The notes beneath the pieces are model-generated. The model saw nothing but the letters and a program-made list of their open reading frames with translations, ran no database searches and had not been told where the DNA came from. Below, piece by piece: positions 31,591 to 52,601 of a stretch of DNA of 64,000 bases; position 1 is the first letter of the stretch; every line of letters starts with the position of its first letter. The translations under genes were made by a program, and so were the position numbers. Where the stretch lies: NCBI GenBank assembly GCA_018402585.1, contig JAGYIO010000003.1, forward strand, positions 1-64,000. The letters run 5' to 3'. Origin of the DNA: Chthoniobacterales bacterium. GTDB taxonomy: Bacteria > Verrucomicrobiota > Verrucomicrobiia > Chthoniobacterales > JACTMZ01.

Positions 31591-32718
31591 ATGCATTCCA
31601 CCCTTCCTATCCTCCTCTCTGCTTCGATCCTCGCCTGCTCCCCGGCCCAAGCCTGCTCGCGCGCCCTCTTCAAAAACAGCGAAGGCAGCGTGTTCACTGG
31701 TCGCTCGATGGACTGGATGAACGCCACCGCCACCGATCTTTATCTTTTCCCGCGCGGTCTGTCACGCGAAGGGGGCACTTCAGGTGACACCCTCAAATGG
31801 ACGTCGAAATACGGCAGCCTGATTTCTTCCTTCTACAATGCGGCCACGGCCGACGGCATCAATGAGAAGGGTTTGGTCGCCAACTTGCTCTACCTCTCCG
31901 TCTCCGATTACGGTTCTCCGGAAGGGAAACCCACCCTCAACATTGCGGCATGGACACAATACGTCCTCGACAATTTTGCCACGGTCGCCGAGGCCGTCGC
32001 CGCTTTGGAAAAAGAGCCCTTCCGCATTATCGCACCCGTTCTGCCCGGCGGGGTCGCCGCCAGCGGCCACCTTGCCATCTCGGACTCTTCCGGGGATTCT
32101 GCCATCTTCGAATACCTCGACGGCAAATTGGTCATTCATCACGGTCCCGAATACAAAGTCATGACCAATGAACCCGCTTACAACGAGCAGTTGGCCATCA
32201 ACAAGTATTGGAAGGACGTCAAGGGCGACGACTTCCTCCCCGGCACCTCGCGTCCGGCCGACCGCTTCGCCCGTGCCTCCTATTACATCAACGCCATCCC
32301 GACGAAACTTGATTCGGCTTATGCCGCCATGGTCCCCGGACAAGACCTCGACGCGCAAAGCATCGCCAGCGTACTCGGAGTGATCCGCGATGTCAGCGTG
32401 CCTCTCGGGATCAGCACACCCGGCCAGCCCAATGTGGCCTCCACGACCTGGCGTACGATCTCGGACCAAAAATCGCTGGTCTATTACTTTGACTCCGCGA
32501 CCTCGCCGAACATTTTCTATGTCGAGCTCGGTAAACTCGATTTTTCGGCGGGTGCCCCGGTGAAAAAGCTGCCTGTCTCCGGCGGCCAAATTTACGGCGG
32601 GGAAGTCTCGGACAAACTCCAGCCTGCCGAACCCTTCGCGTGGCTCCCGGATGATGCAGCCTCCGCTCCGGTTCCGGGAGATGCCCCCGAAGCCTCCGAG
32701 AATACACCGGGTGCCTGA
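31591..32718 (+). CDS. Secreted linear amide C-N hydrolase (choloylglycine hydrolase family), paralog 1
   Basis: N-terminal-nucleophile amidase of the penicillin V acylase/bile salt hydrolase family, exported to the periplasm or outside. ATG 31591 starts a 21-residue signal ending AQA, directly followed by the nucleophile Cys22. Counting from that Cys as 1, Arg17 and Asp20 are in GRSMDW, the catalytic Asn is in MTNEPAYN and the Arg is in DRFARA, so all five classic residues are present. Length 375. A Pro/Ala-rich tail ends the protein. Only this one of six paralogs in the window keeps Asp20 and is on the plus strand. The amide substrate is unknown. Confidence 0.88.
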   Translation: MHSTLPILLSASILACSPAQACSRALFKNSEGSVFTGRSMDWMNATATDLYLFPRGLSREGGTSGDTLKWTSKYGSLISSFYNAATADGINEKGLVANLLYLSVSDYGSPEGKPTLNIAAWTQYVLDNFATVAEAVAALEKEPFRIIAPVLPGGVAASGHLAISDSSGDSAIFEYLDGKLVIHHGPEYKVMTNEPAYNEQLAINKYWKDVKGDDFLPGTSRPADRFARASYYINAIPTKLDSAYAAMVPGQDLDAQSIASVLGVIRDVSVPLGISTPGQPNVASTTWRTISDQKSLVYYFDSATSPNIFYVELGKLDFSAGAPVKKLPVSGGQIYGGEVSDKLQPAEPFAWLPDDAASAPVPGDAPEASENTPGA

Positions 32719-32719
32719 C

Positions 32720-33364
32720 ATGGACCATTTCACCGAATACCTCAAGGTTTTCATCGCGGTCTTCGTGCTGGTCAACCCGCTCGAAGGCATCCCCATTTAT
32801 TTGGCCCGTACTCAGGGCATGTCCAACGCGCAGCGTTTGGCCATCGCACGTACCACGTCGATTGCCATCGCGATCATCCTCTGGGTCGCCCTCGCCCTCG
32901 GCCATGTGGTTCTGCAGCTCCTTGGTATCAGCGTCGGGGCCTTCACCTTGGCCGGCGGCATCATCATTTTTCTCATCGCCCTGAAAATGGTCCTCGGCCC
33001 CACGGGCGGCGACCTCGGCGGATCCGGTCCCGCCGATGGCAGCTTCGCCATCGTGCCGCTGGCCATCCCGCTCCTCGCCGGACCCGGCCCGATCAGTAGC
33101 GTGATCGTCTACGCGAGCAAAGGCATCACCGGGCAGGGCGCCTCGCTCAGCGATGATCTGGTGCTGGCCGGCATCATTCTCGTCGTGGCCGTCGCCGCCT
33201 TTCTTTCGCTGGCCGTGGCCGATCCGGCCCGCCGCTTGCTCGGTGACACCGGCATCAATGTCTTCACCCGCATCGCCGGCATCCTCGTCGCTGCCATCGC
33301 CCTCGGTCTCGTCCACGAAGGCCTCGGCATGCTCTACCCGCAGTTGGCCAGCTCTGCGCCGTAA
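32720..33364 (+). CDS. MarC family integral membrane protein
   Basis: A 214-residue protein with six hydrophobic helices of the MarC (UPF0056) family. Motifs include FVLVNPLEGIPIYL in helix 1, LAGGIIIFLIALKM, and VPLAIPLLAGPGPIS. The family was once tied to antibiotic resistance, but its function is unsettled. ATG 32720 lies 1 bp after the amidase stop, so it is probably co-transcribed with paralog 1; GTG 32711 is an alternative. Confidence 0.9.
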   Translation: MDHFTEYLKVFIAVFVLVNPLEGIPIYLARTQGMSNAQRLAIARTTSIAIAIILWVALALGHVVLQLLGISVGAFTLAGGIIIFLIALKMVLGPTGGDLGGSGPADGSFAIVPLAIPLLAGPGPISSVIVYASKGITGQGASLSDDLVLAGIILVVAVAAFLSLAVADPARRLLGDTGINVFTRIAGILVAAIALGLVHEGLGMLYPQLASSAP

Positions 33365-33474
33365 CGAGCAAAACCACGACACACCCTTGTAGCGTCGCCA
33401 GCCTGTCCGCCCGGGGGCGGATTCCCAAAGATGGTCGTTATTCCCCCGGCGGCCCGCACCCCGCACCTATCTTG

Positions 33475-33834
33475 CTACCGTCCCGCCAGCCCCAACTCTC
33501 GGGCAGCCTTCATCAGCCGCACGTCTTTACTCCACAGACCGATTCCCTCCACCGCACAGGACGCCAGCAAGTTCACATCGACGAGCCCCAGACCGCGTCC
33601 ATGCAGCGCATGACGGCCGATAAAAAACATCACTTCATCATGCGACACTGACTCAACCCGCGGCAGATCGGTGAGCAGTGATAGAATTTCTTGCCGGTTC
33701 CGCAGGTTCCCGCAGGCCAGTTCACCGATAACGAACGGGTGAACCACGACCTCGCCATTCTCGAGCAAGCGAGTCAGCCGCTCCTCACCCGACCGCAGAT
33801 GGTCGATCCAGACCGAGGTATCAACCAGCAGCAT
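33475..33834 (-). CDS. vapC: VapC-type PIN-domain ribonuclease toxin
   Basis: A 119-residue PIN nuclease. The acidic metal-binding residues are visible: Asp5 in LLVDTSVWIDHL, Glu in IGELACG, and Asp in GLVDVNLLAS, with LWSKDVRL in the C-terminal part. VapC toxins cut tRNA or rRNA. The start abuts the stop of the vapB gene with no gap, the classic antitoxin-first operon. Confidence 0.93.
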   Translation of the reverse strand: MLLVDTSVWIDHLRSGEERLTRLLENGEVVVHPFVIGELACGNLRNRQEILSLLTDLPRVESVSHDEVMFFIGRHALHGRGLGLVDVNLLASCAVEGIGLWSKDVRLMKAARELGLAGR

Positions 33835-34026
33835 TCAGGCGGCACGGCGCCGCGGCACCGCTTTGGCTTTTTTCTCGGTGCCGCCCAACCGAGCCAGCCG
33901 CGCCGCACTCATCTTGGCGATCAACGCCTCCAACCCCATGTGCACCAAGGCCGTCTTTTCCTTTACCCCCGCCAAAGCAGAGGCTTTCGAAATCATCTCC
34001 GCATCCAAAATCAACGTCGTCCTCAT
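33835..34026 (-). CDS. vapB: VapB-type antitoxin
   Basis: A 63-residue protein from ATG 34026: MRTTLILDAEMISKASALAG, the ribbon-helix-helix start typical of the VapB/DUF2191 group, then a basic tail (EKKAKAVPRRRAA). It neutralises VapC and represses the operon. The upstream extension of the frame (to 34095) lacks homology and is left out. Confidence 0.9.
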   Translation of the reverse strand: MRTTLILDAEMISKASALAGVKEKTALVHMGLEALIAKMSAARLARLGGTEKKAKAVPRRRAA

Positions 34027-34126
34027 GCATATCAATATGGCTGTTTCATCTGCATAGGTCAATCGCCGGCAGCACATTCCTTGTAGCGTTGCCACGCTGT
34101 TCGCCGCGGGCTCCGGCTCAGCTCAG

Positions 34127-34192
34127 GTGGATCGCGATGTCCCTATCGCGATATCGTTCCAAAACATCGCGCCCGGAGGTCGCGATCCACCC
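34127..34192. repeat. ATCGCGAT palindromic repeat, copy 1
   Basis: ggtggatcgcgatgtccc ... tcgcgatccacc: a 66-bp stretch with 12-bp inverted ends and an inner tatcgcgatatcg. A second copy in the same orientation lies at 35693-35760; together they bracket the ClC gene. The rest of the 263-bp gap 34027-34289 has no gene. Confidence 0.75.
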
Positions 34193-34289
34193 TTCCCCGC
34201 GCAATAAGCCGGGCGCTCATCTCAGTTGGTCGCTGTGGCGACCCGTCTCGCTCTGCTCGGCTGACCGCCGCTCCAATCCCACTCAGCCT

Positions 34290-35648: not shown

Positions 35649-35692
35649 CGGGAATGCGGTATAACAAGGTCAGCGCGTGCCGTCGATGATCC

Positions 35693-35760
35693 GGTGGATC
35701 GCGATGTCCCCATCGCGATAAATCGACCCACAATATCGCGCCCGGAGGGCACGATCCACC
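35693..35760. repeat. ATCGCGAT palindromic repeat, copy 2
   Basis: Same architecture and orientation as 34127-34192 (ggtggatcgcgatgtccc ... cgcccggagggcacgatccacc), 68 bp. The remaining non-coding sequence up to 35927 shows no gene. Confidence 0.75.
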
Positions 35761-35927
35761 CAAGCTTGGACGAAGGGAACCGTGTCCAGCCGGAACCGAG
35801 GCATGGCGAGATAGCCCGCAGGCAATCACACGGCTGGACACAATCCTCTTCAATCTTCCCTAATTTGACCGCTTCGCTCAGCTCTTCGAGCTGTCTGTCT
35901 CGCTCCGCTCGGCTGTGGCCTGCCTTT

Positions 35928-37097
35928 TCACTCCGCCTTGGCCGCCGCCAAAGGCTGCGCCTTGGACGTGATGTCCTCCGGCGCGAAATCATTCTGCAGC
36001 GCAATGACCCGCATGCCGGGTTGACCAAAGTCGATGGCTTTCAGATCGACCACCTGAATCTCCAGCCCGGTGTAGGTCCGGATGTAAGTCTTCAGATTCG
36101 TCCGGTCATGCGCCACGGCCCACTCGGTGGTGTCGGTGTTGACCAGCTTAGGCTGGCCGGCCGAAGTGAGGAATCCCTTCGTATTCGGAGTCTGATCGGC
36201 CGTGTTGCTTTGGATCGCGCCGTTGAAGATGTCGAACGTGTTGAGCACGTGGAAGCCGAGGTTGACCGTGTCGGACGCCGTCGCACCCGGAGTGGCCCAG
36301 CTCGAGAAGAGCGCAGCGCGGACGAAACGCGAGGGTGGCGTCATGTCGCCGGGCAAGCCGACGGCGCCGCTGCCCTGCCCGTAGTTCACCGCAGTGAATT
36401 TGCCCAGTGTGCGCTCGGCCACATTGACCGGCGAAAGGTCGACGTAGTTGCTCACGTTGATCTCCTGCCAGTTGTAAGGCGGCGAGTTGGTCAGGGTGCC
36501 GAGCGGCGCATCATGGATGCTCAGCTTGCCGCCGACGTATTCGGCAATGACCACCTTGTCCGTGCTGTCACCGATCCAGTAGTGGACCGCCAGGACTTCC
36601 TTGAAAGGCACAAACTCCTGCTGCGCCACGTAGACGTCGTTCTGTAAAGCCGCCACGGCTTCATCCACGGAGGAGCAATTGGCCAGGAGATAACTCAGCA
36701 CTTCCCAGCTGCCGATCGACTTGTCCGCCGGCGCCGCCTCGGGATCGAGATACTGCGTAAAACCCGGCAGATAGAGCATGCCGAGAGCCAGGCCCTTTTC
36801 ATTCTGACCATCCGCCACCAGCGTCGGGGCGACATCGACGTTCAGTCCGACGAAACCGTATTTGGCCGTCCACTTTTTGCCCGGCTTTCCGCCGGGGGCC
36901 GTGCCGGTGAAGTCCGTGCCGCGCGGCACGACGAGCACCTTCGAATTGAACGGATACCCGAACTCCATGGAGCGGAAATAAATCTGCGCGCCGTCGTTGG
37001 ATTTGATTTGGAACGCCGTGCAAGCCACAGCGGGGCTGGGAATGCTCAGTGCCAAACAGGCCACCAAGCCGGCCAAGGGGTGTCGGAGTTTTTGCAT
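35928..37097 (-). CDS. Secreted linear amide C-N hydrolase (choloylglycine hydrolase family), paralog 2
   Basis: A 389-residue exported Ntn-type amidase. The signal peptide ends AVA after residue 25, directly before the nucleophile Cys26 (CTAFQIKS). In mature numbering Arg17 is kept (FRSMEFG) but position 20 is Glu instead of Asp. The Asn is in LTNSPPYNW and the Arg in TPPSRFVRAA. ATG 37097 is taken because the signal starts there; the frame is open further upstream without homology. It lies 184 bp downstream of a beta-barrel gene and probably belongs to the OMP-amidase-OMP-amidase run starting at 40133. Confidence 0.87.
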   Translation of the reverse strand: MQKLRHPLAGLVACLALSIPSPAVACTAFQIKSNDGAQIYFRSMEFGYPFNSKVLVVPRGTDFTGTAPGGKPGKKWTAKYGFVGLNVDVAPTLVADGQNEKGLALGMLYLPGFTQYLDPEAAPADKSIGSWEVLSYLLANCSSVDEAVAALQNDVYVAQQEFVPFKEVLAVHYWIGDSTDKVVIAEYVGGKLSIHDAPLGTLTNSPPYNWQEINVSNYVDLSPVNVAERTLGKFTAVNYGQGSGAVGLPGDMTPPSRFVRAALFSSWATPGATASDTVNLGFHVLNTFDIFNGAIQSNTADQTPNTKGFLTSAGQPKLVNTDTTEWAVAHDRTNLKTYIRTYTGLEIQVVDLKAIDFGQPGMRVIALQNDFAPEDITSKAQPLAAAKAE

Positions 37098-37281: not shown

Positions 37282-38055
37282 CTAAAACTCAAAGCTCAGA
37301 CCGATAATCGGGCCGTGCGTGGTCACGTCGTAGCGGAACCCCGCCTGATCGTATTCGTATCCGAGCGCACGGTAACCGACAACCACAGCGAACCATCGGC
37401 TGATCTGCGCGCCGACCCCGGCCAGCGCCTGCCACGTCAGTTCCGAATTCGCCCCGAAGCCGCCGATGTCGCCACGAATGGGGATGAACAGCCAGTGGGT
37501 CAGATGCGTCTGCGTGCGCAGGCCGATCACCGGATCGACCCAAGTGCGGCTCCAATCTCGCGATTTACCCGGCAAGAGTCCCGGGGTCAGGTCGGCGTCC
37601 AAGCCCAGCGAAGCCAGACGGAACCCGCCCAGTAAAGCCATGGTGAAGGCCTTGGTGTCGATGACGCGATAGCCGAGATAACTGGTCCAGAAAACTTCGT
37701 AAGCCTTGGTCTTCAGCTCCCCGAAGAACGGCTGTGTTTCGCTCGTTGACGACTTAACCTGGGCATAGACGAGGTCGTTTTCCAGGCTCCAGCGCTCGTA
37801 AGCCACCTCGATGTCGAGCATGGCGCCCAACGACACGTCGGGGGCCACTTTGGAGAAACTGACATTGGCATCCCTGCTCAACGGACCGGCCCCGACGCTT
37901 CCGCTGGTCGAGGGCAGCCAAGCGTAGGGCGTGATGCGGAAACGCCACGGCGAGTCCGACGCCTTCCCGCGCTCATCGATCACTGCGGGCTGTTCGGGAG
38001 AGCCCGCGAAGACCAGCACTGGACAGCAGACCGCGAGCAGCAGGAGGCTTTTCAT
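37282..38055 (-). CDS. Predicted outer-membrane beta-barrel protein
   Basis: A 257-residue exported protein: signal to about residue 18 (VLVFAG), then alternating strands such as WRFRITPYAWLP, IEVAYERWSLENDLVYAQ and FAVVVGYRALGYEY, ending in GLSFEF with a terminal Phe. This is the pattern of small outer-membrane barrels. It sits between amidase paralogs 2 and 3, 93 bp after paralog 3, so it may pass their substrate or product. No named family is assigned. Confidence 0.75.
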   Translation of the reverse strand: MKSLLLLAVCCPVLVFAGSPEQPAVIDERGKASDSPWRFRITPYAWLPSTSGSVGAGPLSRDANVSFSKVAPDVSLGAMLDIEVAYERWSLENDLVYAQVKSSTSETQPFFGELKTKAYEVFWTSYLGYRVIDTKAFTMALLGGFRLASLGLDADLTPGLLPGKSRDWSRTWVDPVIGLRTQTHLTHWLFIPIRGDIGGFGANSELTWQALAGVGAQISRWFAVVVGYRALGYEYDQAGFRYDVTTHGPIIGLSFEF

Positions 38056-38148: not shown

Positions 38149-39258
38149 CTATTTGACCGTCACCATTTCCGACGGCGTGAAGTTGACATGGTCCTGCGGG
38201 CCCATTTCGACGGTGACCATCTTGTCGCCGGCGGCTTGCAGGGCTTGGGCGAGATCGATGACGCGCACATTCGGGTTCCCGTAGGTTTTGAAGTGGTAGT
38301 GCTTCTTGGCCAGGTCGCTGACCACCGTCCAGGAGGTGTAGTCGGGGAATTTTTCCGAAACGCCGGCGGGGGGCTTGGCGACGCCGGGCGGGATGTCGAA
38401 GTTGTTGAGGAAATGGAACATCGTGCCCACGGCCTCGGCGCTAGTGGCCTGCGGCAGGGCGTTTTGCAGATAGAACGCCATGCGCACGAAGCGCGAAGGC
38501 GGGGTGAAGTCGCCGGGCAGACCGCGCGAACCGCCACCCATGCCGAAAGGCGATAGTTCGAGGTCGCCGATTTTCTGGTTCGCGGGATAGGCCGCGGACA
38601 TGTTCAGGTAGTTGTTGAGGTTGGTCAGCATCCAGGAGAATTCCGGGGCGTTGGTCAAAACGCGCACGGGGTTATCGTGCACGACGAGTTCTCCGCCGCG
38701 AGGCTCGATGGTGATGCAGGCGCCGGTGGGATCCTGCACCTTGATGTGCAAGTCCGGCACGATGCCGAGGAGGTCGATCACCACGGGCAAGAGGGCGATC
38801 TTACCGATATTCGCCTTCACCTCGGCGACCGTGGCAAAATTGCTGAGAATCCACGCGGTGACTTGGGCGGGCGCGAGGCCTTTGGCCGAGTTTTCCGGTG
38901 TCGCCTCGGCGTATTGCGCGAAGCCGGGGAAGTAAAAGAGGCCGACGTTGAGGCCTTGGTCGTTCAGACCGTCGATCAGCATGTCATAGTTCGTGGCGGC
39001 GGTCGGGCCGACAAAACCATATTTCGATTTCCATTTGAGGCCGTTCTTGCCGGTGGAGGTCAGTCCGGTGAATTCGGACCCGGCCGGCCAGACGGCGAGC
39101 ACGGAATTAAGGGGTTCACCGAACTCGAGTGTGCGTCCGACGGCCACGCCGCCGTCTTTGGCGGTGAGTGCCCCGCCGGTGCAGGCGAGCGCGGGTTGGT
39201 TGGCAAAAAGCATCGCTGCGAGAGCGAGCACTGCGGGCAGAACTTTAGGTGTTTTCAT
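38149..39258 (-). CDS. Secreted linear amide C-N hydrolase (choloylglycine hydrolase family), paralog 3
   Basis: A 369-residue exported amidase. The signal ends ALA at residue 25, then Cys26 starts the mature enzyme (CTGGALTAKDGG). Arg17 (GRTLEFG) is kept, position 20 is Glu, the Asn is in LTNAPEFSW and the Arg in TPPSRFVRMA. It shares the PGDxTPPSRFVR loop with paralog 2, so these two are the closest pair. It begins 47 bp after the outer-membrane gene at 39306 and is followed by another one, suggesting one transcript. Confidence 0.87.
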   Translation of the reverse strand: MKTPKVLPAVLALAAMLFANQPALACTGGALTAKDGGVAVGRTLEFGEPLNSVLAVWPAGSEFTGLTSTGKNGLKWKSKYGFVGPTAATNYDMLIDGLNDQGLNVGLFYFPGFAQYAEATPENSAKGLAPAQVTAWILSNFATVAEVKANIGKIALLPVVIDLLGIVPDLHIKVQDPTGACITIEPRGGELVVHDNPVRVLTNAPEFSWMLTNLNNYLNMSAAYPANQKIGDLELSPFGMGGGSRGLPGDFTPPSRFVRMAFYLQNALPQATSAEAVGTMFHFLNNFDIPPGVAKPPAGVSEKFPDYTSWTVVSDLAKKHYHFKTYGNPNVRVIDLAQALQAAGDKMVTVEMGPQDHVNFTPSEMVTVK

Positions 39259-39305: not shown

Positions 39306-40133
39306 CTATTCAGGAAACATCGGAGTGAAGCTGACACGCATGCCCCATTGCTGACCGGGCACGGGCGACTGAGCATAGTATTGTAGCTCCAAGGCAATTT
39401 GCACCGGGAGTTTGCCGAGTTTGAAGACTTGGCTGACTCCGGAGTTGAAGGAAATCGTCCAGTCCTGGTCGGCCTCCTCGCTGATCCAGTTGTAGGACGA
39501 TTCGCTGTCCACCGAGATGGTCGTTGCCGTTTTGAAGGTGTGAGCGATGAAGGGCTGGACATACGTCGTGTTGTAATCGCCCGGCCCGGCCACGCGCCAG
39601 TTTTGCGTGACGAGCGAACCGATGGTCCATCCGTCGCGCTGCCACAAGGCGACGCCGGTGGGACCGAGGGTCATGACATCGCCGCCCAACCGGCGCTGCG
39701 TGGCGGTGGGTAGAATTGCGGTGGGGCCGATTCCCCAAATAATCCCGAGCGGCCCGGGCGCCATCGGCGAAATGAATGTTTCCAGCTCAAGATCCCCCAA
39801 CCCACTGACATAGCCTGGCCCATACACATTGCTCGTCGAGATAAAGGGCAAGACAGGGCGCACGATATAATTCCACTCTGGCGTGATGTGCAGCGGAATC
39901 ACCGGCTGGAAATTGAGCAGATAAAGCGTCCCGTTGTTCGCTCCCACGCCGAAGTCGAAGTTGTTTTGGAACTGCACGCTGATCAGATCCGCCACGGGAT
40001 TCTGCAGTTTCACGGCCAGAGCCGCGGTATCTGTCGGCGCAGCGGACGAGGTGGTAACGGGAACAGGATCCGTGGCGAGCGCCGCCGTGGACATGGAGAA
40101 AACAAGGAGCGCACGGAGGGAGGGCGATTTCAT
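39306..40133 (-). CDS. Outer-membrane transporter-like beta-barrel protein
   Basis: A 275-residue protein with a signal peptide (to about residue 20, AALAT) and strand-rich sequence: ISVQFQNNFDFGVG, WNYIVRPVLPFIS, GIGPTAILPTAT, WRVAGPG. This resembles the neuromedin-U/phenol-degradation-type outer-membrane proteins found near catabolic genes. ATG 40133 begins the signal. It appears to be the first gene of the OMP-amidase-OMP-amidase run. Upstream is a 225-bp repeat copy, so its promoter must lie in the 117 bp between 40134 and 40250. Confidence 0.75.
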   Translation of the reverse strand: MKSPSLRALLVFSMSTAALATDPVPVTTSSAAPTDTAALAVKLQNPVADLISVQFQNNFDFGVGANNGTLYLLNFQPVIPLHITPEWNYIVRPVLPFISTSNVYGPGYVSGLGDLELETFISPMAPGPLGIIWGIGPTAILPTATQRRLGGDVMTLGPTGVALWQRDGWTIGSLVTQNWRVAGPGDYNTTYVQPFIAHTFKTATTISVDSESSYNWISEEADQDWTISFNSGVSQVFKLGKLPVQIALELQYYAQSPVPGQQWGMRVSFTPMFPE

Positions 40134-40250: not shown

Positions 40251-40475
40251 TTAGCCGTAACCATGCAAAACATTCTGCCATTTCTGGCACGGCAACAGAG
40301 GCGCGTCTGGGCGAGAGTTGACTAACTATTTGGTGAGCGAGGTGGCACGTGGCCAAGGGGGCACGGGCGTCCCGCCCGTCACGACCCGACAACACGGCCG
40401 GGACGGCCGTGCCCCCTGGACAAACCGAACCAAGCCGCGCTTTTATTGCCTCTTCAACTGCATGGTTACGGCTAA
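40251..40475 (+). repeat. Copy C of the ~225-bp dispersed repeat (best-preserved)
   Basis: Perfect 17-bp terminal inverted repeats: TTAGCCGTAACCATGCA at 40251-40267 and its complement at 40459-40475. Inside are a aaaacattctgcc block, actatttggtgagcg, a GC-rich palindromic core (gggggcacgggcgtcc / ggacggccgtgccccc) and a ttattgc tail. It has no coding capacity that looks real, so it is a non-autonomous (MITE-like) element or large extragenic palindrome. Copy D starts where it ends, sharing TAA. Confidence 0.9.
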
Positions 40476-40720: not shown

Positions 40721-41623
40721 ATGAAACGCACCCTTCTTGCCCTCACCACCGCTGTTTTTGGCACCACCATACCTTTGACGCTGCAAGCAGACTTCAAACC
40801 CGAAGTGAAATTCGCGGAAGTCAACGGGGTCAAACTGGCCTACTACATCCGCGGCGAAGGTGAACCGCTGCTCATGATCAACGGGTTCGTTTCCAGCATG
40901 AGTTTGTGGGATCCCCTCATGCTCGAGACCTTGGCCCAGCAGCATCAGCTGATCCTCTTCGACAACCGCGGCGTGGGCCTGTCCACCGACACGAAGGAAA
41001 ACAACACGACCATCCGGCAGATGGCCGACGATGCCGCCGGGTTGATCAAAGCCCTCGGCCTCAAGAAGACGAACATCCTTGCCTACTCCATGGGCGCGCG
41101 GATCGGACAGCAGCTGCTCATCCGGCATCCCGACCTGGTAAACAAAGCCGTGCTCTGCGCCGCCGATCCGGGCGGTAAATATGATGACCCGGCGGCGCCG
41201 GATGTGGAAGCCAAGCTCAACAATCCCGACGCGCCCAAGATGGAAAGACTGGCGCTCACCGTCCCCGACACCGCGGCCGGGCAGGCCGCGTTGAAAGCCG
41301 CACTGGCACGAATCAAGGCGGCTGTTGCGTCGGGTATCATTCCCGACGATTTCGACGTCTCCAAACAGACCACCGAGCGTCAGGACCGCGCCCGCACCAC
41401 GCTGTGGAAGGCGGACAACAGCAACTTCGAGAACCTGAAAAACATCAAGGTGCCCGTGCTCATCACCGACGGGCGTTACGACGCCATTGATCCGCCAAAA
41501 AACTCACTCATCATCGCCAACCAAATCCCTTTCTCCTGGCTGGCCTTCTTCGACGGCGGCCATTCGTTCCTCTACACCTCCCCGAAGCACTTCGCCGACA
41601 CGGCCAACGCGTTCCTACAGTAA
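40721..41623 (+). CDS. Exported alpha/beta hydrolase
   Basis: A 300-residue alpha/beta-hydrolase-fold protein with a signal peptide (ends LTLQAD near residue 23). The oxyanion region INGFVSSMSLWD, the nucleophile elbow AYSMGAR (Ser), an acid near ITDGRYDAIDPP and the His in FFDGGHSFL make a full triad. It resembles arylesterase/lactonase/haloperoxidase-type enzymes, which include quorum-signal lactonases, but the substrate is not readable. ATG 40721 is used; the frame extends upstream only into repeat copy D. Confidence 0.85.
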   Translation: MKRTLLALTTAVFGTTIPLTLQADFKPEVKFAEVNGVKLAYYIRGEGEPLLMINGFVSSMSLWDPLMLETLAQQHQLILFDNRGVGLSTDTKENNTTIRQMADDAAGLIKALGLKKTNILAYSMGARIGQQLLIRHPDLVNKAVLCAADPGGKYDDPAAPDVEAKLNNPDAPKMERLALTVPDTAAGQAALKAALARIKAAVASGIIPDDFDVSKQTTERQDRARTTLWKADNSNFENLKNIKVPVLITDGRYDAIDPPKNSLIIANQIPFSWLAFFDGGHSFLYTSPKHFADTANAFLQ

Positions 41624-42925: not shown

Positions 42926-44326
42926 ATGCCCAGATCCCCTCGCCCGGCTCTCATTCTGGCTCTGGCATTTTGTCTCTTGGGCTACGAGTGGTCCGCCGCG
43001 TTGGAGGGCGACTCCTCCTCCCCCCTGGTGGGGACAGCTGGCTCGCCCTCAAACCAAATGTCGCGGCCCGCTGCGGCGAGCGGGTCGTACCAAACGGCGG
43101 ACCTTGAGCCCGACACGGTCCTCTCGCGTATTTCTTCACTGCTCAAAACATCCGCCCAGCCTGTGGACCTCGAATTTTTCGTCGATTATTTCGGCGTCTT
43201 CCAAGGCAATCCGGTGGGCGGTCAATCGCAGGGTGTGGCCTATTCGCAATACCTGCCCTTCGGCTTCGTCTGGAGGGAGCCATTCGGATGGCGCGGGGGC
43301 GGACTTCGGGTTTCCGCCGTCTCCGGCGCGGGAAACAATCTTTCCGAGACGATCGGCAATGCTTTCACCGTCTCGCAGGCCTGGGATGGGAACACCTTGT
43401 TTCTTTATCAAGCTTACCTCGTGCAGAAGGCTTTCGATGACAAATTGGAAATCGGCATCGGCCGGGTTTCCGCTTCGCAATACTTTGCCACCCTTCCCGC
43501 CTTCGATTTGCTCGTTTCCGGCGGACTCAATTCCGTGCCCATCGGCCTCGAACTCAACTCGACCTTCACCGGCAGCGCCTCGGCTTCGTGGTTCGCGGGG
43601 GCGCGTTGGCTGCCGATGAAGGAGACCGTTCTCACCGCGGGAGTTTTCCAGGCCCGCGCCGACCTCGGACAAACCGGACCCTACGACGGCTTGGATTTCG
43701 GACTGGATCCGGACGATGGCACCTTCGGCGTGGTGGAAATCGCTTGGACTCCGCACTCGAAAGAATTCGCCTCCGTGCAGGAGGACCGGCAGTTCACCCG
43801 CGGCCGACGTGAGCTCAACGGCAACGGTGTCGGTTTTCCCGGCGTTTATAAACTCGGGGCCTATGTCTCGGACCAACCGCAGGTGTCCTACCCCGGCGGA
43901 TGGGGCGGAAGCCCTTTCGGCTTCTACGGGATCGGACAGCAAACGCTCTGGGAGCAAAGTCCGGGTCAAGCCAACACCTCGCAATTCTCCGTCTTCGGGG
44001 GCGTGGTCTGGTCACCACCGAGCGGCGTGACGCAAATGCCGGTGGACGGATTCGCCGGCACCGTCTGGCGCGGGCCGTGGAGCGCGCGTCCTCACGACCA
44101 TTTATACACATCATGGCAGATCGGCAGCTTCAGCGAGCCTTACGCGCAAAGTCAGGGGCAAAGTTCCGCCGGCGCCTTCGAGTCCGTGCTCAACGCGGGC
44201 TATATCATCCAAATCACCAAGGAATTCTCCGTGCAACCCGACATCCAATACATCATCCAGCCGGACGGCTTCGGCCAATACGGCAACGCGCTTGTGCTCG
44301 GGCTGCAGGTGACGATCGAGCTTTAG
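42926..44326 (+). CDS. OprB-type carbohydrate porin
   Basis: A 466-residue outer-membrane porin. After a signal peptide (LALAFCLLGYEWSAALEG) come strands such as FFVDYFGVFQGNPVGG, FLYQAYLVQKAF, LEIGIGRVSASQYFA and a long C-terminal barrel with YIIQITKEFSVQPDIQYIIQP, the OprB signature, ending GLQVTIEL. OprB porins pass sugars, matching the sugar-type MFS gene far upstream only loosely. Its last ~50 bp are copied at 45096-45147, after a toxin-antitoxin module. Confidence 0.88.
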   Translation: MPRSPRPALILALAFCLLGYEWSAALEGDSSSPLVGTAGSPSNQMSRPAAASGSYQTADLEPDTVLSRISSLLKTSAQPVDLEFFVDYFGVFQGNPVGGQSQGVAYSQYLPFGFVWREPFGWRGGGLRVSAVSGAGNNLSETIGNAFTVSQAWDGNTLFLYQAYLVQKAFDDKLEIGIGRVSASQYFATLPAFDLLVSGGLNSVPIGLELNSTFTGSASASWFAGARWLPMKETVLTAGVFQARADLGQTGPYDGLDFGLDPDDGTFGVVEIAWTPHSKEFASVQEDRQFTRGRRELNGNGVGFPGVYKLGAYVSDQPQVSYPGGWGGSPFGFYGIGQQTLWEQSPGQANTSQFSVFGGVVWSPPSGVTQMPVDGFAGTVWRGPWSARPHDHLYTSWQIGSFSEPYAQSQGQSSAGAFESVLNAGYIIQITKEFSVQPDIQYIIQPDGFGQYGNALVLGLQVTIEL

Positions 44327-45147: not shown

Positions 45148-45166
45148 GTGGCGCTGCCCCCGCGGT

Positions 45167-45305: not shown

Positions 45306-46448
45306 CTACTCTTCCTTCGCCGAGCCGAGGAGAATCTGCGTTCCGTCGAGTTGGTCGTCGTTGATCTTGTCCAACGGAACAGTGACCACTTTTTTGATGG
45401 GCGACAGCTTGTCGATCTCGAACTGCGCGAAATTCAGCGCGTCGATCGTGCGCAGGAAGTAAAGATTCCGCACTTTGTCGTTCATCCAAGTGAAGAGCGT
45501 CACCTCGCTCGAGGTGGTGCCCGGAGTTCCTCCTTCGGCCGAGTAACCTTTGTCGATCGAGAGGTCGTAGGGACGGTCGAAATTGTTGAGGATATGCCCC
45601 AAGGTGATGACCGCGTCCCGCGGCGAGTCGGCCTTGCGCACGTATTGCGTGTAGAAAGCCGCTTTGACGAAACGGCCGGCGGAGATTTGCGAAGAGGGCA
45701 CGCCGGCCAGCGCGTTGCCGCTGTCAGGCGCGTTCACCTCGAGGTCGCGGAACTGACCAGTGCTCTTGTCGAGATTACTCAGCTGCGCGTAGTTGTTCAG
45801 GTTTGTCAGGTGCCACGGAAAATCCGGGGCATTGGTCACGACACCCACCGGGTTGTCGTGGATGTTTTGTTTGCCGTCCAAATACTCGATGACAATCCCC
45901 GCGCCGGACTTGTCGAAAAGGATGTAGTGCAACGGCGCGACGAGATTTCCCATGAGCGGAATCTCCGGGAGCCAGACACTGACAGAACCGTCCTCCAGCG
46001 CCGCTCTGACCTCTGCCACGGATTTGAAGTTGCCGAGGAGGTAAAGGCCAAGGTCGGTGGAGGCCAAAGCCTTCGCGGCATCAGATCCCGCTCCGGTCGG
46101 CGATTGGGATTTCGGCATTTCATTGGTACTCACGGACAGGCCTTGGTTGTTGATGGCTTCCACCATCATATTGATGCCATTGCCTACGCCCACATCGCCA
46201 CTGACTCCCAGCACAGGATACTTCGTCTCGAAGGGCAGGCCGGGCTCGTTCCCCGGCGCCACGGAAACGACCTTGGTGCCGGCCGGGACATAGGTCATTT
46301 CGAATGGCAGCGGCACTGCGTATTCCATCGTCTTGCCGCTGTAGGCATTGCCTTGCTTGTCGGTGATCATCAACGCCGTGCAGGCCTGTGCGGAGGGCAC
46401 GGCCATGACAAGAGACAAGCTGAGAAGGAGGAGAAGCGATCTTTTCAT
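45306..46448 (-). CDS. Secreted linear amide C-N hydrolase (choloylglycine hydrolase family), paralog 4
   Basis: A 380-residue exported amidase starting at ATG 46448 (the frame upstream runs into repeat copy E and is spurious). The signal ends AQA at residue 22; Cys23 is the nucleophile (CTALMITDK). In mature numbering position 17 is Lys instead of the usual Arg (SGKTMEYA) and position 20 is Glu. The Asn in VTNAPDFPW and the Arg in GRFVKAAFY are kept. It forms a subgroup with paralogs 5 and 6, sharing PDFPWHL-like loops. Confidence 0.87.
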   Translation of the reverse strand: MKRSLLLLLSLSLVMAVPSAQACTALMITDKQGNAYSGKTMEYAVPLPFEMTYVPAGTKVVSVAPGNEPGLPFETKYPVLGVSGDVGVGNGINMMVEAINNQGLSVSTNEMPKSQSPTGAGSDAAKALASTDLGLYLLGNFKSVAEVRAALEDGSVSVWLPEIPLMGNLVAPLHYILFDKSGAGIVIEYLDGKQNIHDNPVGVVTNAPDFPWHLTNLNNYAQLSNLDKSTGQFRDLEVNAPDSGNALAGVPSSQISAGRFVKAAFYTQYVRKADSPRDAVITLGHILNNFDRPYDLSIDKGYSAEGGTPGTTSSEVTLFTWMNDKVRNLYFLRTIDALNFAQFEIDKLSPIKKVVTVPLDKINDDQLDGTQILLGSAKEE

Positions 46449-46549: not shown

Positions 46550-46793
46550 TTAGCCGGAATGATGCAAAACATTCTGCCTTTTCCGGCGCTGCCCCAGAGG
46601 CGCGCCTGGGCGAGAGTTGACTAACTATTTGGTGAGCGAGTTGGCACGTGGCCAAGGGGCACGGGCAGCCTGCCCGCCGTGCGCGGGTCCCGCCCGTCAC
46701 GATCAAACAACACGGCCGGGACGGCCGTGCCCCCTGGACAAACCGAGCCAAGCCGCGCTTTTATGGCGTCTTCAACTGCATGGTCCCGGCTTA
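46550..46793 (+). repeat. Copy E of the ~225-bp dispersed repeat
   Basis: Ends TTAGCCGGAATGATGCA (left) and TGCATGGTCCCGGCTTA (right) are diverged terminal inverted repeats. An extra gcctgcccgccgtgcgcggg is inserted in the core. It fills the space between amidase paralogs 4 and 5, and its last three bases (tta) are the stop codon of paralog 5. Confidence 0.85.
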
Positions 46794-47933
46794 AGATCCC
46801 TGCTCCGGATAAAACAACTTGAAGGAATCCGCCCCGGCCTGGTCCACGTCATAGGTGAGGACGGACTTCACCTCCTTGACGTCTTTCAGCTTGTCCATGT
46901 CGATGACGGCCCAGTTCATCGCATTGATGCTGCGGAAGTAGAGCAGGTTGCGGGACAGGTCCTGCAGGGTCGTCCAAATGGTGACTTCGCTCGAGGTGCC
47001 ACTGCTCCTGACCCCGTCGCCCGTGCCGCCCGCCTCATCCACCGTCAGATCATAGGGACGGTCGAAATTGTTCATGAGGTGCGCCAGGGTGACAATGGCC
47101 TCGTCGGGCGTTTTGGCTTTGCGCACGTAATTGGCATAAAAAGCCGCTTTGACGAATCGTCCCTGCGATGTCTCCGCGGACGGCAGGGCCGTCAAGGCGA
47201 TGCCCGCATCCTGGGTCTGGAGCTTGAGCTTGCCCAACTGCCCGGTGTTTTTGTCGACATTGGTGAAGGTGTAGTTTTGCAGGTTCTTCAAATGCCACGG
47301 AAAATCCGGACCGTTGGTCATCACCCCGACGGGGTTATCATAGACATTGACCTTGCCATCCGTGAATTCGACCACGATGGAATCGCCGTTTTTGTCATTG
47401 ATCGCATAATGCAGCGGCAAAGGCGTGCCCGGCGCCACCACATTATCCGTGGGCACCCAGAATTCGGTCTGACCACTCGTCAGGGCCGCTTTGACTTCCC
47501 CGACAGACTTGAAGTTTCCCAGCACCCAGGCACCAAGGTCGTTCGACGCCAAAATCCGGGCCTCGTCGTCGCCCACGCCGGGTGATTCCGTGCCGTTCAA
47601 CCAATTCGCCGAAAAACTGACGCCTTGATCGTTGATGCCTTCGGCAAAGGCCACCTGCTTGGCGGAGGTCACGACCGGAAAACTCATGCCCAGAATGGGA
47701 TACTTGGTGTCAAAGGTCAGGCCTTGGTTTCCAGTCGGCGTGGCGGAAATGACTTTCGTGCCGGCCGGGAAATAGGTCATGTCCAGCGGCAGAAGCACAC
47801 TGTATTCCAAGGTTCTTCCATGATAAGCGCGCCCGCTCGTATCGGTGACAAGAATGGTGGTGCAGGCTTGGGCCGCGGGGGCATGAAGCAGCAGCGCGGC
47901 GATAACGAGGAGGACGGGAGGCAGCTTTCTCAT
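46791..47933 (-). CDS. Secreted linear amide C-N hydrolase (choloylglycine hydrolase family), paralog 5
   Basis: A 380-residue exported amidase. The signal ends AQA at residue 23, Cys24 begins the mature enzyme (CTTILVTDTSG). Arg17 (HGRTLEYS) is present, position 20 is Glu, the Asn is in MTNGPDFPW and the Arg in GRFVKAAFYA. It lies just upstream of paralog 4 on the same strand, but repeat copy E separates them by about 340 bp. Its stop codon coincides with the repeat end. The 187 bp upstream up to 48120 hold nothing recognisable besides its promoter. Confidence 0.87.
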   Translation of the reverse strand: MRKLPPVLLVIAALLLHAPAAQACTTILVTDTSGRAYHGRTLEYSVLLPLDMTYFPAGTKVISATPTGNQGLTFDTKYPILGMSFPVVTSAKQVAFAEGINDQGVSFSANWLNGTESPGVGDDEARILASNDLGAWVLGNFKSVGEVKAALTSGQTEFWVPTDNVVAPGTPLPLHYAINDKNGDSIVVEFTDGKVNVYDNPVGVMTNGPDFPWHLKNLQNYTFTNVDKNTGQLGKLKLQTQDAGIALTALPSAETSQGRFVKAAFYANYVRKAKTPDEAIVTLAHLMNNFDRPYDLTVDEAGGTGDGVRSSGTSSEVTIWTTLQDLSRNLLYFRSINAMNWAVIDMDKLKDVKEVKSVLTYDVDQAGADSFKLFYPEQGS

Positions 47934-48984: not shown

Positions 48985-48986
48985 GA

Positions 48987-50423
48987 TCAGTGAGAAATAT
49001 TCTGTTCGTTGGCGATGCGCTCACACTCCGCACAAAGACCATCAATATGAACGGCCGGGAATCCCTGCGCCGCCAAATAGGAAGCAGCCAGCGACGCGCG
49101 CTTGCCGCTGCCACAATGGATGAACAACCTTTTGCCTCGCGGCACTTCGGCCAGCCGGTCACGCAGTCTGGTGTAAGGAATGGAAATCGCGCCGGGCAGG
49201 TGCCCCTCCTGAAATTCGGAGGTCGTGCGCACATCCAAGATTACCCCTTCCGTGGCGGCTTTCGCCGCATCGAAATCCGGGAACATCGTGCGTTCCGCCG
49301 GAACAATCTCCCCTCCCGCTTCCTGCCATTGCCGGCCGGAAATCCAGCCGACCAGACCGTCCAAGCCAATGCGATACAACTGCAAGGCAGCCAAGTCGGC
49401 GGACGCCTGGTCCTCGGCGATCAAAAGAATTCTTTCATTTTCCCCGACATAGGAGCCGGCTCCCGCGCTGAAAAACGGTCCATGGAGCGGCAGATGGATG
49501 GAGCGCGGCACATGACCTTCGACAAACTCATCCCGCGAATCCCTGCTGTCCAAGACGCTGACCGTAGGATCATCAACCAAAGCTTTCGCTTCGGCCAAAG
49601 ACAAGGCCACGGCCGGAGGCACGGCGCCGGTGACGCGAATCCCATCACGGTTGACCCTCTTCATGGTCGCAAAATAAACGGGCGACTCCGGTTGGCCTCG
49701 CAGGATTTCTTTGACGAACCCCTCGGGATCGCCCGCCGCCTGACGCAGCGGCGCATTATACTTGCGCTCATAGCCCAAAGTCGTGGTCGGCACCGCCCCC
49801 AGAGATTTGCCGCAGGCACTGCCGGCACCATGACCGGGTAAGATCTGCAAAAAATCTTCCCGCGAAGCCAAACGCCCGACCAACGAAGCCTGCAGCTTCC
49901 GTGCCGAGGGTTCCATCACGCCCTTTTGACCCGCTGCACTCTCGAGCAAATCCGGACGGCCCACATCCCCGACAAAAAGAAAATCCCCGGTGGCCAGGGC
50001 GATGGGGGAATCCGCCCCTCCGCCCAGATCGGTGACCAAATAACTCATGTGCTCGGGCGTGTGCCCCGGGGAGTGAACCGCTTCGAGCAAAATGTTGCCC
50101 ACCTTGAAGGTGTCCCCGTTTTTCAATAAAAAGGTGTTGGGACGCCCCTTGCTCCACTGGTAAGTCCAGTCCTTACCGCCTTCGTCGGAAAGATACAATT
50201 TGATTTGGGGATCCGCGGCGAACTCTTGGCTGCCACTGACAAAATCCGCATGGATGTGGGTCTCGGCCACCGCCGTGATGCGCAGACCATTCTGTGCCGC
50301 CAAGGCCTCATAGCGCGCAATGTCCCGCTCGGGATCGATCACCACGGCTTCGCCCGTGCGCTGGCACCCCACGAGGTAGGCGTATTGGGCCAGGTAAGGA
50401 TCAAAAATTTGTCGTAAAAACAT
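48987..50423 (-). CDS. Persulfide dioxygenase-rhodanese fusion (CstB/Blh-like)
   Basis: A 478-residue sulfur-oxidising enzyme in the cytoplasm. Residues 1-240 form an ETHE1-like metallo-beta-lactamase domain with iron ligands in THIHADFVSGS, SPGHTPEH and GDFLFVGDVGRPDL. Residues about 255-350 form a rhodanese-like domain without active Cys. Residues about 375-475 form an active rhodanese with HCGSGKRA. The same three-domain order is found in CstB, which turns persulfides into sulfite/thiosulfate. It is co-transcribed with tauE and a YgaP-like rhodanese. Confidence 0.93.
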   Translation of the reverse strand: MFLRQIFDPYLAQYAYLVGCQRTGEAVVIDPERDIARYEALAAQNGLRITAVAETHIHADFVSGSQEFAADPQIKLYLSDEGGKDWTYQWSKGRPNTFLLKNGDTFKVGNILLEAVHSPGHTPEHMSYLVTDLGGGADSPIALATGDFLFVGDVGRPDLLESAAGQKGVMEPSARKLQASLVGRLASREDFLQILPGHGAGSACGKSLGAVPTTTLGYERKYNAPLRQAAGDPEGFVKEILRGQPESPVYFATMKRVNRDGIRVTGAVPPAVALSLAEAKALVDDPTVSVLDSRDSRDEFVEGHVPRSIHLPLHGPFFSAGAGSYVGENERILLIAEDQASADLAALQLYRIGLDGLVGWISGRQWQEAGGEIVPAERTMFPDFDAAKAATEGVILDVRTTSEFQEGHLPGAISIPYTRLRDRLAEVPRGKRLFIHCGSGKRASLAASYLAAQGFPAVHIDGLCAECERIANEQNISH

Positions 50424-50445
50424 AAGGTGTCAGAAAAGTGGTTCG

Positions 50446-50991
50446 TTATCGGGCACAGGTCGCTCCGCCCTCCGCAGAGCAGCTGCCCCCGCGGTTGTTC
50501 CAAGGCATCCGGGCCAACATCAACCCCATGCCACACCAGTCGGTCAGCCCGGCAAAAATCAACCCGCACCCCACAAAGCCGCTCAAAAGCAGAAACCACG
50601 GGGTCACCAACGTGCCCAAGACCACGCCGGCCACGATGATGACGCCGGCCCCGATGCGCACCTGACGCTCGATGGAAATACTCTTCTTCCCGCGATTGAC
50701 CGGCAATCCGGCCTCATCCCAGGCCGTCACACCGCCCTCCAAGACCTCCAGCCCGCCGTGCCCCGCAGCCTCCAACTTCTCCGCCGCCTGCTTCGCGCGG
50801 TTCCCCGACCGGCAAATCAAGGCCACCCTCGAACCGCCCATGTCCTTCACCTTCTGCGGATCCAACTCATGCAAAGGCATCAAGCGCGACCCCGGAATAT
50901 GCACCTCCTCGAATTCCGCCGCCGTCCTCACATCGAGCAGAATGCCATCGTTAAAATTGTCGTTCAGTTCCTTGGCGTGAATCGTTTTCAT
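50446..50991 (-). CDS. Membrane-anchored rhodanese (YgaP-like)
   Basis: A 181-residue protein. Residues 1-100 are a rhodanese domain with LLDVRTAAEFEEVHIPGS and the active Cys in LICRSGNRA; residues about 113-155 hold two transmembrane helices of the DUF2892 kind, as in E. coli YgaP. It is a persulfide sulfurtransferase at the inner membrane. It is the first gene of the operon, 22 bp before the persulfide dioxygenase gene, and diverges from an ArsR regulator, matching the YgaV-YgaP pairing known in enterobacteria. Confidence 0.9.
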   Translation of the reverse strand: MKTIHAKELNDNFNDGILLDVRTAAEFEEVHIPGSRLMPLHELDPQKVKDMGGSRVALICRSGNRAKQAAEKLEAAGHGGLEVLEGGVTAWDEAGLPVNRGKKSISIERQVRIGAGVIIVAGVVLGTLVTPWFLLLSGFVGCGLIFAGLTDWCGMGLMLARMPWNNRGGSCSAEGGATCAR

Positions 50992-51027
50992 TTTTTTCTT
51001 GGATAAGTTGGTTCAAAGGACATATTT

Positions 51028-51045
51028 TATCGCGATATCGCGATA
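51028..51045. promoter_or_regulatory. Perfect 18-bp palindromic operator
   Basis: TATCGCGATATCGCGATA is its own reverse complement. It lies in the 53-bp space between the divergent rhodanese and ArsR start codons and touches the ArsR ATG, so a bound dimer would block both promoters. It is most simply the ArsR regulator's operator. Confidence 0.8.
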
Positions 51046-51413
51046 TGCAAGCAAAAAAGCAAAGTAAAATCTCCATGTCCGATGGGCAGGTGGAGGAGGC
51101 CGCGCGGCTTTTCGGGATGCTCTCGGAGCCGGCCCGGCTCTATTTGTTGCGCGCGCTCATGGAGGGGGCTGCTCCAGTCGGGAGGCTGGTCGCGCTGACC
51201 GGGATAAAGCAAGGTACGGTTTCGAAGCATTTGGGCATCCTGCACGCCAGCCGTTTTGTGGCCCGCCGCCGCGAGGGAACCCAGGTCTGGTATGAAATCT
51301 CCGAGCCGGCCCTGTTCGAATTGTGCGAGCTGATGTGTTCGAGGATCCAGCGCGATGTCGAAGGACAGATTGCGCGCCTCGGAGCGGACCGGCACGGCAA
51401 CCCTGCGGCGTAA
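51045..51413 (+). CDS. ArsR family regulator of the persulfide operon
   Basis: A 122-residue winged-helix repressor: LFGMLSEPARLYLLRALMEG, then the recognition helix GIKQGTVSKHLGILH and the wing FVARRREGTQVWYEI. Its only cysteines are Cys94 and Cys98 in ELCELMC, near the C-terminal helix; the helix-2 Cys of BigR/SqrR is missing, so if it senses sulfide or persulfide it must use this pair, between or within subunits. It starts at the edge of a perfect palindrome shared with the divergent operon. Confidence 0.9.
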   Translation: MQAKKQSKISMSDGQVEEAARLFGMLSEPARLYLLRALMEGAAPVGRLVALTGIKQGTVSKHLGILHASRFVARRREGTQVWYEISEPALFELCELMCSRIQRDVEGQIARLGADRHGNPAA

Positions 51414-51440
51414 CTTTGCAGAAGCTGCTGAGCCCCGCCG

Positions 51441-52601
51441 TCAGTTCAGAAAAAGATCCGTCGCGTCGAGTTGCGTGTTGGCATTGACCGCATCGAGGGT
51501 CACTACCTTCGGCGCCTTGAGCACGCTCAGCTTGTTGATGTCGAACTTCGAGAAGTTGAGGGCATTGATCGTGCGGAGGTAGAAGTGCCCCTGCGTCAAA
51601 TCGTGCAACACGGTCCAGTCGGTGACTTCGGAAATGGATTTGGGGCCCTTCGACGCCGCCATGCTGCGTTCGCCGGACGGCAGATCGCCCTCGAGGTCCT
51701 TCGAGATATCCTTCGGACGGTCAAAGTTGTTCATCACATGACCCAGCGTAAAGATGGCCTGCTCGGGGGTTTCGGCTTTGTGCGCGAAGGTCGAGTAATA
51801 GGCCGCTTTGACGAAGCGCCCGGGTGAGGTCTCGACGCCGGGCAGGCTGGCCATGTTGCCGCCGCTGTCGTCGGCCTGCACTTCCAGCTTGTTGAAGCGG
51901 CCGCGGTTTTTGTCGATGTTGGTCAGGTAGGCGTAGTTCTGCATGTTGGCCAGATGCCACGGGAACGGCGGATTGTTGGTTAACACTCCGACCGGGTTGT
52001 CATAGACGGTGGTCTCACCGTCGGTCCATTCGATGACAATCCCCGCCCCCGTCCTGTCGAAGAGCGCGAAGTGCACCGGCATGTCGCCGTCGCCGAGGAA
52101 CGGAATCTCCGGCAACCACACCGCCACTTCTTTTTTGGCCAACGCTTCTTTGACCTCGGCCACCGTCGCAAAATTGCCCAGCGCCCAGGTTCCCAGATCG
52201 AGTCCCGAAAGCACCTGGTCGGCCGGCACCCCGGCGACATCCGGCGACTTGTTGCCGCTGAGGGAATTGGTCGTGAAGGTCAACCCTTGATCGTTGGTCG
52301 CCTCGTGCAGGGTGTCCTGCTTGGCATCAGGCACCAAACCATAGGCCGTGACCGCCAGAATCGCATATTTGGTGTCAAACGTTTTGCCCGGCTGGCCGCC
52401 TGGCGTGACCGATTCGATGCGACTACCGGCGGGGTAATACGTCATGCGGTCCGGCACACTCCCGACAAACTCCATGGTCCGCCCCACGTAAGGAAGCCCC
52501 TTGGCATCGGTGTAAAGCAGAACAGTGCAAGCCGAAGCACGCGGCGGAAGCACCAAGGCAATGAGAGCAAGAACAACAGGAAGGATGTATGTCTTATTCA
52601 T
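51441..52601 (-). CDS. Secreted linear amide C-N hydrolase (choloylglycine hydrolase family), paralog 6
   Basis: A 386-residue exported amidase. The signal ends ASA at residue 24, then Cys25 (CTVLLYTDAKG). Arg17 (VGRTMEFVG) is present, position 20 is Glu, the Asn is in LTNNPPFPW and the Arg in GRFVKAAYYS. It is closest in loop sequences to paralogs 4 and 5. Its gene ends 27 bp from the convergent ArsR gene. The mature protein is otherwise collinear with the others, pointing to repeated duplication with dispersal. Confidence 0.87.
   Translation of the reverse strand: MNKTYILPVVLALIALVLPPRASACTVLLYTDAKGLPYVGRTMEFVGSVPDRMTYYPAGSRIESVTPGGQPGKTFDTKYAILAVTAYGLVPDAKQDTLHEATNDQGLTFTTNSLSGNKSPDVAGVPADQVLSGLDLGTWALGNFATVAEVKEALAKKEVAVWLPEIPFLGDGDMPVHFALFDRTGAGIVIEWTDGETTVYDNPVGVLTNNPPFPWHLANMQNYAYLTNIDKNRGRFNKLEVQADDSGGNMASLPGVETSPGRFVKAAYYSTFAHKAETPEQAIFTLGHVMNNFDRPKDISKDLEGDLPSGERSMAASKGPKSISEVTDWTVLHDLTQGHFYLRTINALNFSKFDINKLSVLKAPKVVTLDAVNANTQLDATDLFLN

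Follow-up and report, generated by a model that had tools for sequence, protein, structure and literature searches.

A putative mosaic island of six exported choloylglycine hydrolase-type amidases in a Chthoniobacterales genome

The window analyzed here is a 64,000 nucleotide stretch of a Chthoniobacterales bacterium (assembly GCA_018402585.1, contig JAGYIO010000003.1, positions 1 to 64,000). It harbors six exported-type choloylglycine hydrolase (CGH) open reading frames (ORFs) within 21 kb, five of them on one strand. We consider it fairly probable that these genes form a mosaic island of exported cysteine N-terminal nucleophile (Ntn) amidases that are activated by export cleavage. In brief, each precursor would be exported and cut by signal peptidase I between small-x-Ala and Cys. 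The catalytic Cys would then be residue 1, its alpha-amino group free, and export, maturation and activation would coincide in one step. The mature enzymes would be extracytoplasmic hydrolases of linear N-acyl amides, and the gene order suggests that an OprB-type porin and two suspected outer-membrane proteins may pass substrates or products. The cluster would have been assembled from four lineages of the genus, A, B, C and D, together with a laterally shared D2/OprB pair and a gene, D3, whose nearest relative is phage-borne. It is ordinary in fold, mechanism and junction, and unusual in number, lineage mix and mobility.

The gene cluster and its family

All six ORFs match the CBAH family PF02275 (MEROPS C59) with 133-234 bits against a curated cut-off of 20.4, which bears out the family and the six gene positions proposed earlier in a sequence-only reading of this DNA. 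The genes are listed below; residue positions 18, 21, 82, 175 and 228 follow CpBSH numbering.

31591..32718, + strand: CGH type A; AQA before Cys codon 31654-31656; PF02275 137 bits; Asp21, Tyr82
35928..37097, - strand: CGH type B; AVA before Cys codon 37022-37020; PF02275 196 bits; Glu21, Tyr82
38149..39258, - strand: CGH type C; ALA before Cys codon 39183-39181; PF02275 234 bits; Glu21, Tyr82
45306..46448, - strand: CGH type D1; AQA before Cys codon 46382-46380; PF02275 150 bits; Lys18, Glu21, Glu82
46791..47933, - strand: CGH type D2; AQA before Cys codon 47864-47862; PF02275 168 bits; Glu21, Trp82
51441..52601, - strand: CGH type D3; ASA before Cys codon 52529-52527; PF02275 139 bits; Glu21, Ser82

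The proteins are 29-49% identical overall, with 29-34% identity to the type C protein (38149) and 48-49% among D1, D2 and D3. They are thus not the near-identical recent copies that the sequence-only reading had named as an outcome speaking against its proposal. A structure model of D2 (mean predicted local distance difference test score, pLDDT, 73; predicted template modelling score, pTM, 0.79) matched CpBSH 2rf8 at 7e-24 and BtBSH 6ufy with template modelling scores of 0.72/0.82. The best 50 listed PDB matches of this model were all CGH-family entries, pointing to the alpha-beta-beta-alpha Ntn fold for D2.

The window opens a 392 kb contig on which rpoB is also found. Its genome (G000) is a 2.46 Mb draft of 35 contigs, and a PF02275 profile search of it gave six matches, all in the window; the assembly is 89.6% complete and more matches are possible. 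Of 387 genomes sampled from the phylum, 54 had a PF02275 match, the window's genome included, and the others in the sample had at most three matches each. Seven of ten other species of the genus have between one and five; two of those counted for G007, which has five, are contig-end pieces, probably of one gene. Among 80 loci of other genomes, many of them cut by short contigs, nine hold two CGH ORFs (one partial, one a fragment) and none holds more.

Gut bacteria with multiple bile salt hydrolase (BSH) genes are alike in having several divergent CGH genes per strain, with mobile elements suspected (excerpts of the review PMC8066178). A survey cited there gives at most four BSH paralogues per human gut strain, and the BSH types inside one Lactobacillus strain are described as generally unclustered, whereas six CGH genes are clustered in 21 kb here. 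Our literature search found no paper on such CGH clusters in Verrucomicrobiota.

Active-site residues and candidate substrates

The catalytic Cys, Asn175 and Arg228 are kept in all six proteins and Arg18 in five, D1 having Lys instead. Asp21 is found in type A only, the other five having Glu. Across 149 CGH sequences, position 21 is Glu in 114, Asp in 34 and a gap in one, and the exported relatives commonly have Glu. The Asp/Glu label changes only twice on the tree, where Glu marks a large, mostly exported lineage. We found no mention of Glu in place of Asp21 in excerpts of PMC8066178. Simulations indicate that Arg18 and Asp21 mainly set the ionisation of the Cys and have little effect on the barrier (excerpts of PMC3289653), and Lys18 and Glu21 are for this reason compatible with activity. 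Records of the genus Brucella (L047, L053, L058) carry an Asp-type and a Glu-type exported-type CGH gene about 3-4 kb apart on opposite strands.

BSH and penicillin V acylase (PVA) are told apart by Asn82 in the former and an aromatic residue 82 in the latter (excerpts of PMC8066178). None of the six has Asn82: the residue there is Tyr in types A-C, while D1 carries Glu, D2 Trp and D3 Ser. The PVA rule thus fits the Tyr of A, B and C and the Trp of D2, but not the Glu of D1 or the Ser of D3. Within the D types, Glu82 occurs together with Lys18 in five of five D1 sequences, and Ser82 is found in both D3 sequences. Among the D2 proteins, Trp82 is seen in those of the window and G478 (a genome of another family) and Glu in a phage-borne one; five sequences of a third family have Ala.

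None of the six reaches the cut-off of the NCBIfam equivalog models for BSH (NF038245; best 209.5 bits against 350) or PVA (NF058572; best 212.8 bits against 600), the latter being a narrow model of the YxeL type. As all six miss both cut-offs, no substrate belongs in their annotation. The proposal of a different N-acyl amide for each enzyme has only indirect support: residue 82 (Y, Y, Y, E, W, S) and the Lys18 of D1 differ in a way that fits diversified substrates, while no substrate can be named. Our best guess is that hydrolysis of N-acyl amides outside the cytoplasm is the work of these enzymes.

Type A aligns over its whole mature length with the exported Gram-negative enzymes AtPVA (5j9r), PaPVA (4wl2) and BtBSH (6ufy) at 2e-105 to 1e-95, the best solved matches being 6ufy (2e-105) and 5j9r (1e-102). 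It keeps the Cys, Arg18, Asp21, Asn175, Arg228 and an aromatic residue 82, and its predicted mature chain starts at the Cys. It differs in having Tyr82, where AtPVA and PaPVA have Trp and BtBSH has Phe, and in being one of six in a cluster. BspPVA (3pva), BsuPVA (2oqc) and CpBSH (2bjf) are the nearest solved relatives of type C by sequence, and the D2 model has the same fold. Unlike these Gram-positive enzymes, types B, C and D begin with signal-peptide-like stretches and carry Glu instead of Asp21; D1-D3 lack the Asn82 of BSH, and D1 and D3 the aromatic residue of PVA. We infer that the substrates differ, with A-C resembling PVA and acyl-homoserine lactone (AHL) acylases and D1 and D3 unlike either.

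The set might mainly be a quorum-quenching (AHL-degrading) or penicillin-degrading armoury and not serve scavenging. AHL degradation is reported for AtPVA and PaPVA (excerpts of PMC8066178), which together with BtBSH are closest to type A among solved structures, and A, B and C carry the PVA-type Tyr82. Against this, the NCBIfam cut-offs for penicillin V amidase and choloylglycine hydrolase are missed throughout, D1 and D3 have no aromatic residue, and the neighbouring porin and hydrolase genes would suit uptake equally well. We regard an armoury as possible but doubtful.

Signal peptides and the catalytic cysteine

The junctions AQA, AVA, ALA, AQA, AQA and ASA before the catalytic Cys were read correctly from the sequence and are confirmed by alignment; in solved homologues the aligned Cys is residue 1 or 2. 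The signal peptides are 21-25 residues long up to the Cys, and each has a hydrophobic core (10-residue Kyte-Doolittle maximum 2.5-3.6). The net charge of the first seven residues is +1 or +2 in five proteins and 0 in type A (31591), which has no basic residue there. By these simple measures, all six have the hydrophobic core and the small-x-small at -3/-1 of a signal peptidase I substrate. The placement of the Cys is consistent with the earlier proposal that cleavage of the signal peptide would free it as residue 1.

This junction is not special to the cluster. Small-x-small precedes the catalytic Cys in 125 of 129 exported-type relatives outside the window, a sample that includes members of the genus and is biased toward type C-like proteins, the main scan query. 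It is exactly A-x-A in 82 of them, and the four exceptions are AHT, ARP, ALP and AFP. Five further relatives, which begin with Met-Cys and represent the cytoplasmic form, were removed before counting. Not one of the 129 has Leu at -3, whereas Leu makes up 19% of the residues from -15 to -4. A nucleophile directly preceded by a signal peptidase I site thus looks like the common state of exported members, and one that avoids a lipobox. Given how widely the junction is kept, exported CGH members probably mature as a rule in one step, through signal peptidase I.

For the enzymes covered in excerpts of PMC8066178, Met removal or an autocatalytic step is given, and excerpts of PMC8228234 describe a gut enzyme without a signal peptide. 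A literature search of such excerpts found no statement of a direct signal-peptidase route for exported CGH members, which may still be published.

Some of the six could alternatively be lipoproteins cut by signal peptidase II, as all six have a Cys at the cut. Type A has a second Cys at -6 (ILAC), the corresponding IVAC of its orthologue in G004 is a lipobox match, and type B (35928) has VAC within the hydrophobic core. A strict lipobox, [LVI][ASTVI][GAS]C, lies at the catalytic Cys in 2 of 137 proteins in all, and in none of the six. Lipidation of the catalytic Cys would give a dead enzyme; in type A the Cys at -6 could serve as an anchor, but a second, autocatalytic cut would then be needed. 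All six have Ala at -3, a position where Leu is absent from the 129 outside relatives, and the catalytic residues are under purifying selection, which would be pointless with a lipidated nucleophile. We therefore find lipoproteins improbable and retain signal peptidase I cleavage as the route.

Lineages, neighbouring genes and lateral transfer

A first tree had 145 rows after four short rows were dropped; 31 of its 141 inner branches have support below 80, and its deep order is tentative. In this tree type A is placed in a 28-row group with AtPVA, PaPVA and BtBSH, with Asp at position 21. B, C and D are separate, well-supported groups inside the large, mostly exported Glu21 set. In a 41-row tree the D clade is supported at 100/100. 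Within it, D1 groups with genes of G001, G004, G007 and G481 (100/100), D2 with G478 and one phage gene (100/100), and D3 with another phage gene (100/98), its nearest relative found. Of 142 ORF matches, 28 were left out, 27 in loci L001-L024 that repeat other stretches and one duplicate.

The ratio of nonsynonymous to synonymous divergence (dN/dS) is 0.06-0.22 in nine ortholog pairs of A, B, C, D1 and D2 (D3 apart; two phage pairs are saturated in dS), indicating purifying selection. Between D1, D2 and D3, dS is 1.3-1.8, and theirs is an older split. A recent tandem expansion of one gene within one genome, without functional meaning, is very improbable: six genes in 21 kb, five on one strand and D1 adjoining D2, would suit it, but the 29-49% identity, the purifying selection and the separate tree positions with orthologues in other genomes do not, and the trees reject recent duplication of one gene for A, B, C and D. 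The earlier description of the six as paralogs of one dedicated set is right as to family and diversification, but they belong to four lineages, and D2 appears to have arrived laterally with OprB. G483, from another family, has B and C genes of 96-97% amino-acid identity, but their 5 kb contig is possibly mis-binned and they were set aside.

The following genes lie between the CGH genes:

37282..38055, - strand: protein beside B without Pfam match; outer-membrane barrel suspected from sequence only
39306..40133, - strand: protein beside C without Pfam match over cut-off; outer-membrane barrel suspected from sequence only
40721..41623, + strand: alpha/beta hydrolase with signal-peptide-like start (PF00561, 3e-26); kept in the island of G004 and G007
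42926..44326, + strand: OprB-type porin (PF04966, 2.5e-35), tail-to-tail with D1

Pieces of the island recur in the genus, where homologues of the 39306 protein are kept beside C or B. We found A-MarC-ClC in G006 and B-ClC-M15 peptidase in G002. G004 has B, the 39306 homologue, the alpha/beta hydrolase, OprB and D1. G007 has D1, OprB, the hydrolase, the 39306 homologue and C, and the following contig continues with the remainder of C, B and ClC. OprB is tail-to-tail with a D gene in five of eight flanked chromosomal D loci (window, G004, G007, G478 and G481), with gaps of about 0.05-3 kb. It should be noted that G481, a metagenome-assembled genome of 380 contigs, is weaker evidence for OprB-D1 than G478 with its 20 contigs.

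The window's genome and G478 belong to different families. Their DNA identity is 89.8% for D2 and 86.4% for OprB, compared with 75.9% for each of the rpoB and recA regions, and dS is 0.313 for D2 and 0.455 for OprB, compared with 1.24 for rpoB and recA. Within the genus (G000 and G004), dS is 0.69 for rpoB and 0.63 for recA. As D2 and OprB differ less between families than rpoB does within the genus, lateral movement is indicated. The OprB protein of the window has 86.9% residue identity to that of G478, compared with 69-70% to its own genus, and D1, located between OprB and D2 in the window, follows the genus. These observations speak strongly for a movement of OprB and D2 between families; either family could have been the giver, or a third source may have supplied the genes.

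The phage genes are located on a 17 kb contig, IMGVR_UViG_3300032561_002131 (L105/L152). This contig encodes a terminase large subunit (phrog_2, 6e-35), a major head protein (phrog_9953, 1e-37), a holin (phrog_3427, 1e-10) and a long ORF with a weak head-tail adaptor match (phrog_332, 2e-6). Between the head-tail and major head protein genes it carries a cargo of a secretory lipase (PF03583), a DUF1275 protein, two tandem exported-type CGH genes and a small exported-type protein. The GC content is mostly lower in the cargo (0.40-0.45) than in the phage part (0.46-0.50). The CGH pair are sisters of D3 and D2 in the gene order of the window, but the copies are 61-63% identical to those of the window, so that this contig is not the recent donor. 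The phage evidence is one contig, which may be a chimeric assembly. A DUF1275-D3-D2 block shared by window and phage was considered and rejected, as the DUF1275 proteins are 25% identical over 69 residues (E 0.19).

Two further viral-contig scans returned this contig once more; their one other match, on a different contig, was weak and 57 residues long. The first scan had also returned L106, a type A relative. A tblastn search of a phage collection gave 16 records, none above 60% identity and none annotated, and a literature search found no paper on phage-borne CGH. CGH genes 37-44% identical to D2 are also found on plasmids of Salmonella, Providencia, Acinetobacter, Roseibium and Leptolyngbya, and several of these matches start at the catalytic Cys.

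More speculatively, and rather unlikely as things stand, the D clade might be a new mobile subfamily of exported amidases outside BSH/PVA specificity, with Glu, Ser, Trp or Ala at position 82 and Lys18 in D1. It would travel with OprB between Chthoniobacterales families and on phages as a tandem D3-D2, and would enable its hosts to hydrolyse, in the periplasm, N-acyl amides of a particular class.

Genes at 54718-59449 (- strand), beside the cluster, encode a 620-residue protein with two matches to carbon-nitrogen hydrolase (nitrilase) domains, a cupin-like protein (by sequence) and a gamma-glutamyltranspeptidase. These are further amide-bond enzymes, and a homologue of the gamma-glutamyltranspeptidase also adjoins OprB-D1 in G481. 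A palindromic GC-rich intergenic repeat, GGGCACGGGCGTCCCGCCCGT, is found in the window at 2523, 20729, 40359, 40580, 42763, 46712 and 52853. The genome holds about 180 matches (98 forward and 85 reverse with at most two mismatches; the reversed control gave 0 and 0). The copies at 40359, 40580 and 52853, together with diverged ones, were considered as a cause of the cluster and rejected, as the repeat is spread genome-wide. An Rfam scan of the window gave one match over threshold, a tRNA at 19250-19323, and no RNA element at the cluster.

Several points weigh against an export-activated island with a porin link. The missing N-terminal basic residue of type A and its competing lipobox-like Cys at -6 raise some doubt. 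Any good signal peptidase I site would also be without Leu at -3, so the absence of Leu is by itself no proof of selection against lipidation. The structure model of the 39306 protein has a mean pLDDT of 28, and the barrels of the 37282 and 39306 products are a suspicion. No OprB match was found at the D loci of G362, G583 or the phage contig; a third D locus without OprB, that of G001, lies on a 3 kb contig. Finally, the OprB gene of G478 (L179:9261-10532, - strand) carries an in-frame stop close to its N-terminal end. The stop could stem from a sequencing error; otherwise the porin-amidase pair may not be functional there.

The enzymes and their mode of maturation belong to a known family, and the cluster is unusually large and partly built by gene transfer. 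At a small-x-Ala/Cys junction, cutting off the signal peptide would be enough to activate the enzyme. The cluster offers a natural panel of six neighbouring enzymes that differ at the main specificity position. With an amidase and a porin under transfer and with relatives on a phage contig, the role of CGH enzymes outside the gut becomes directly testable.

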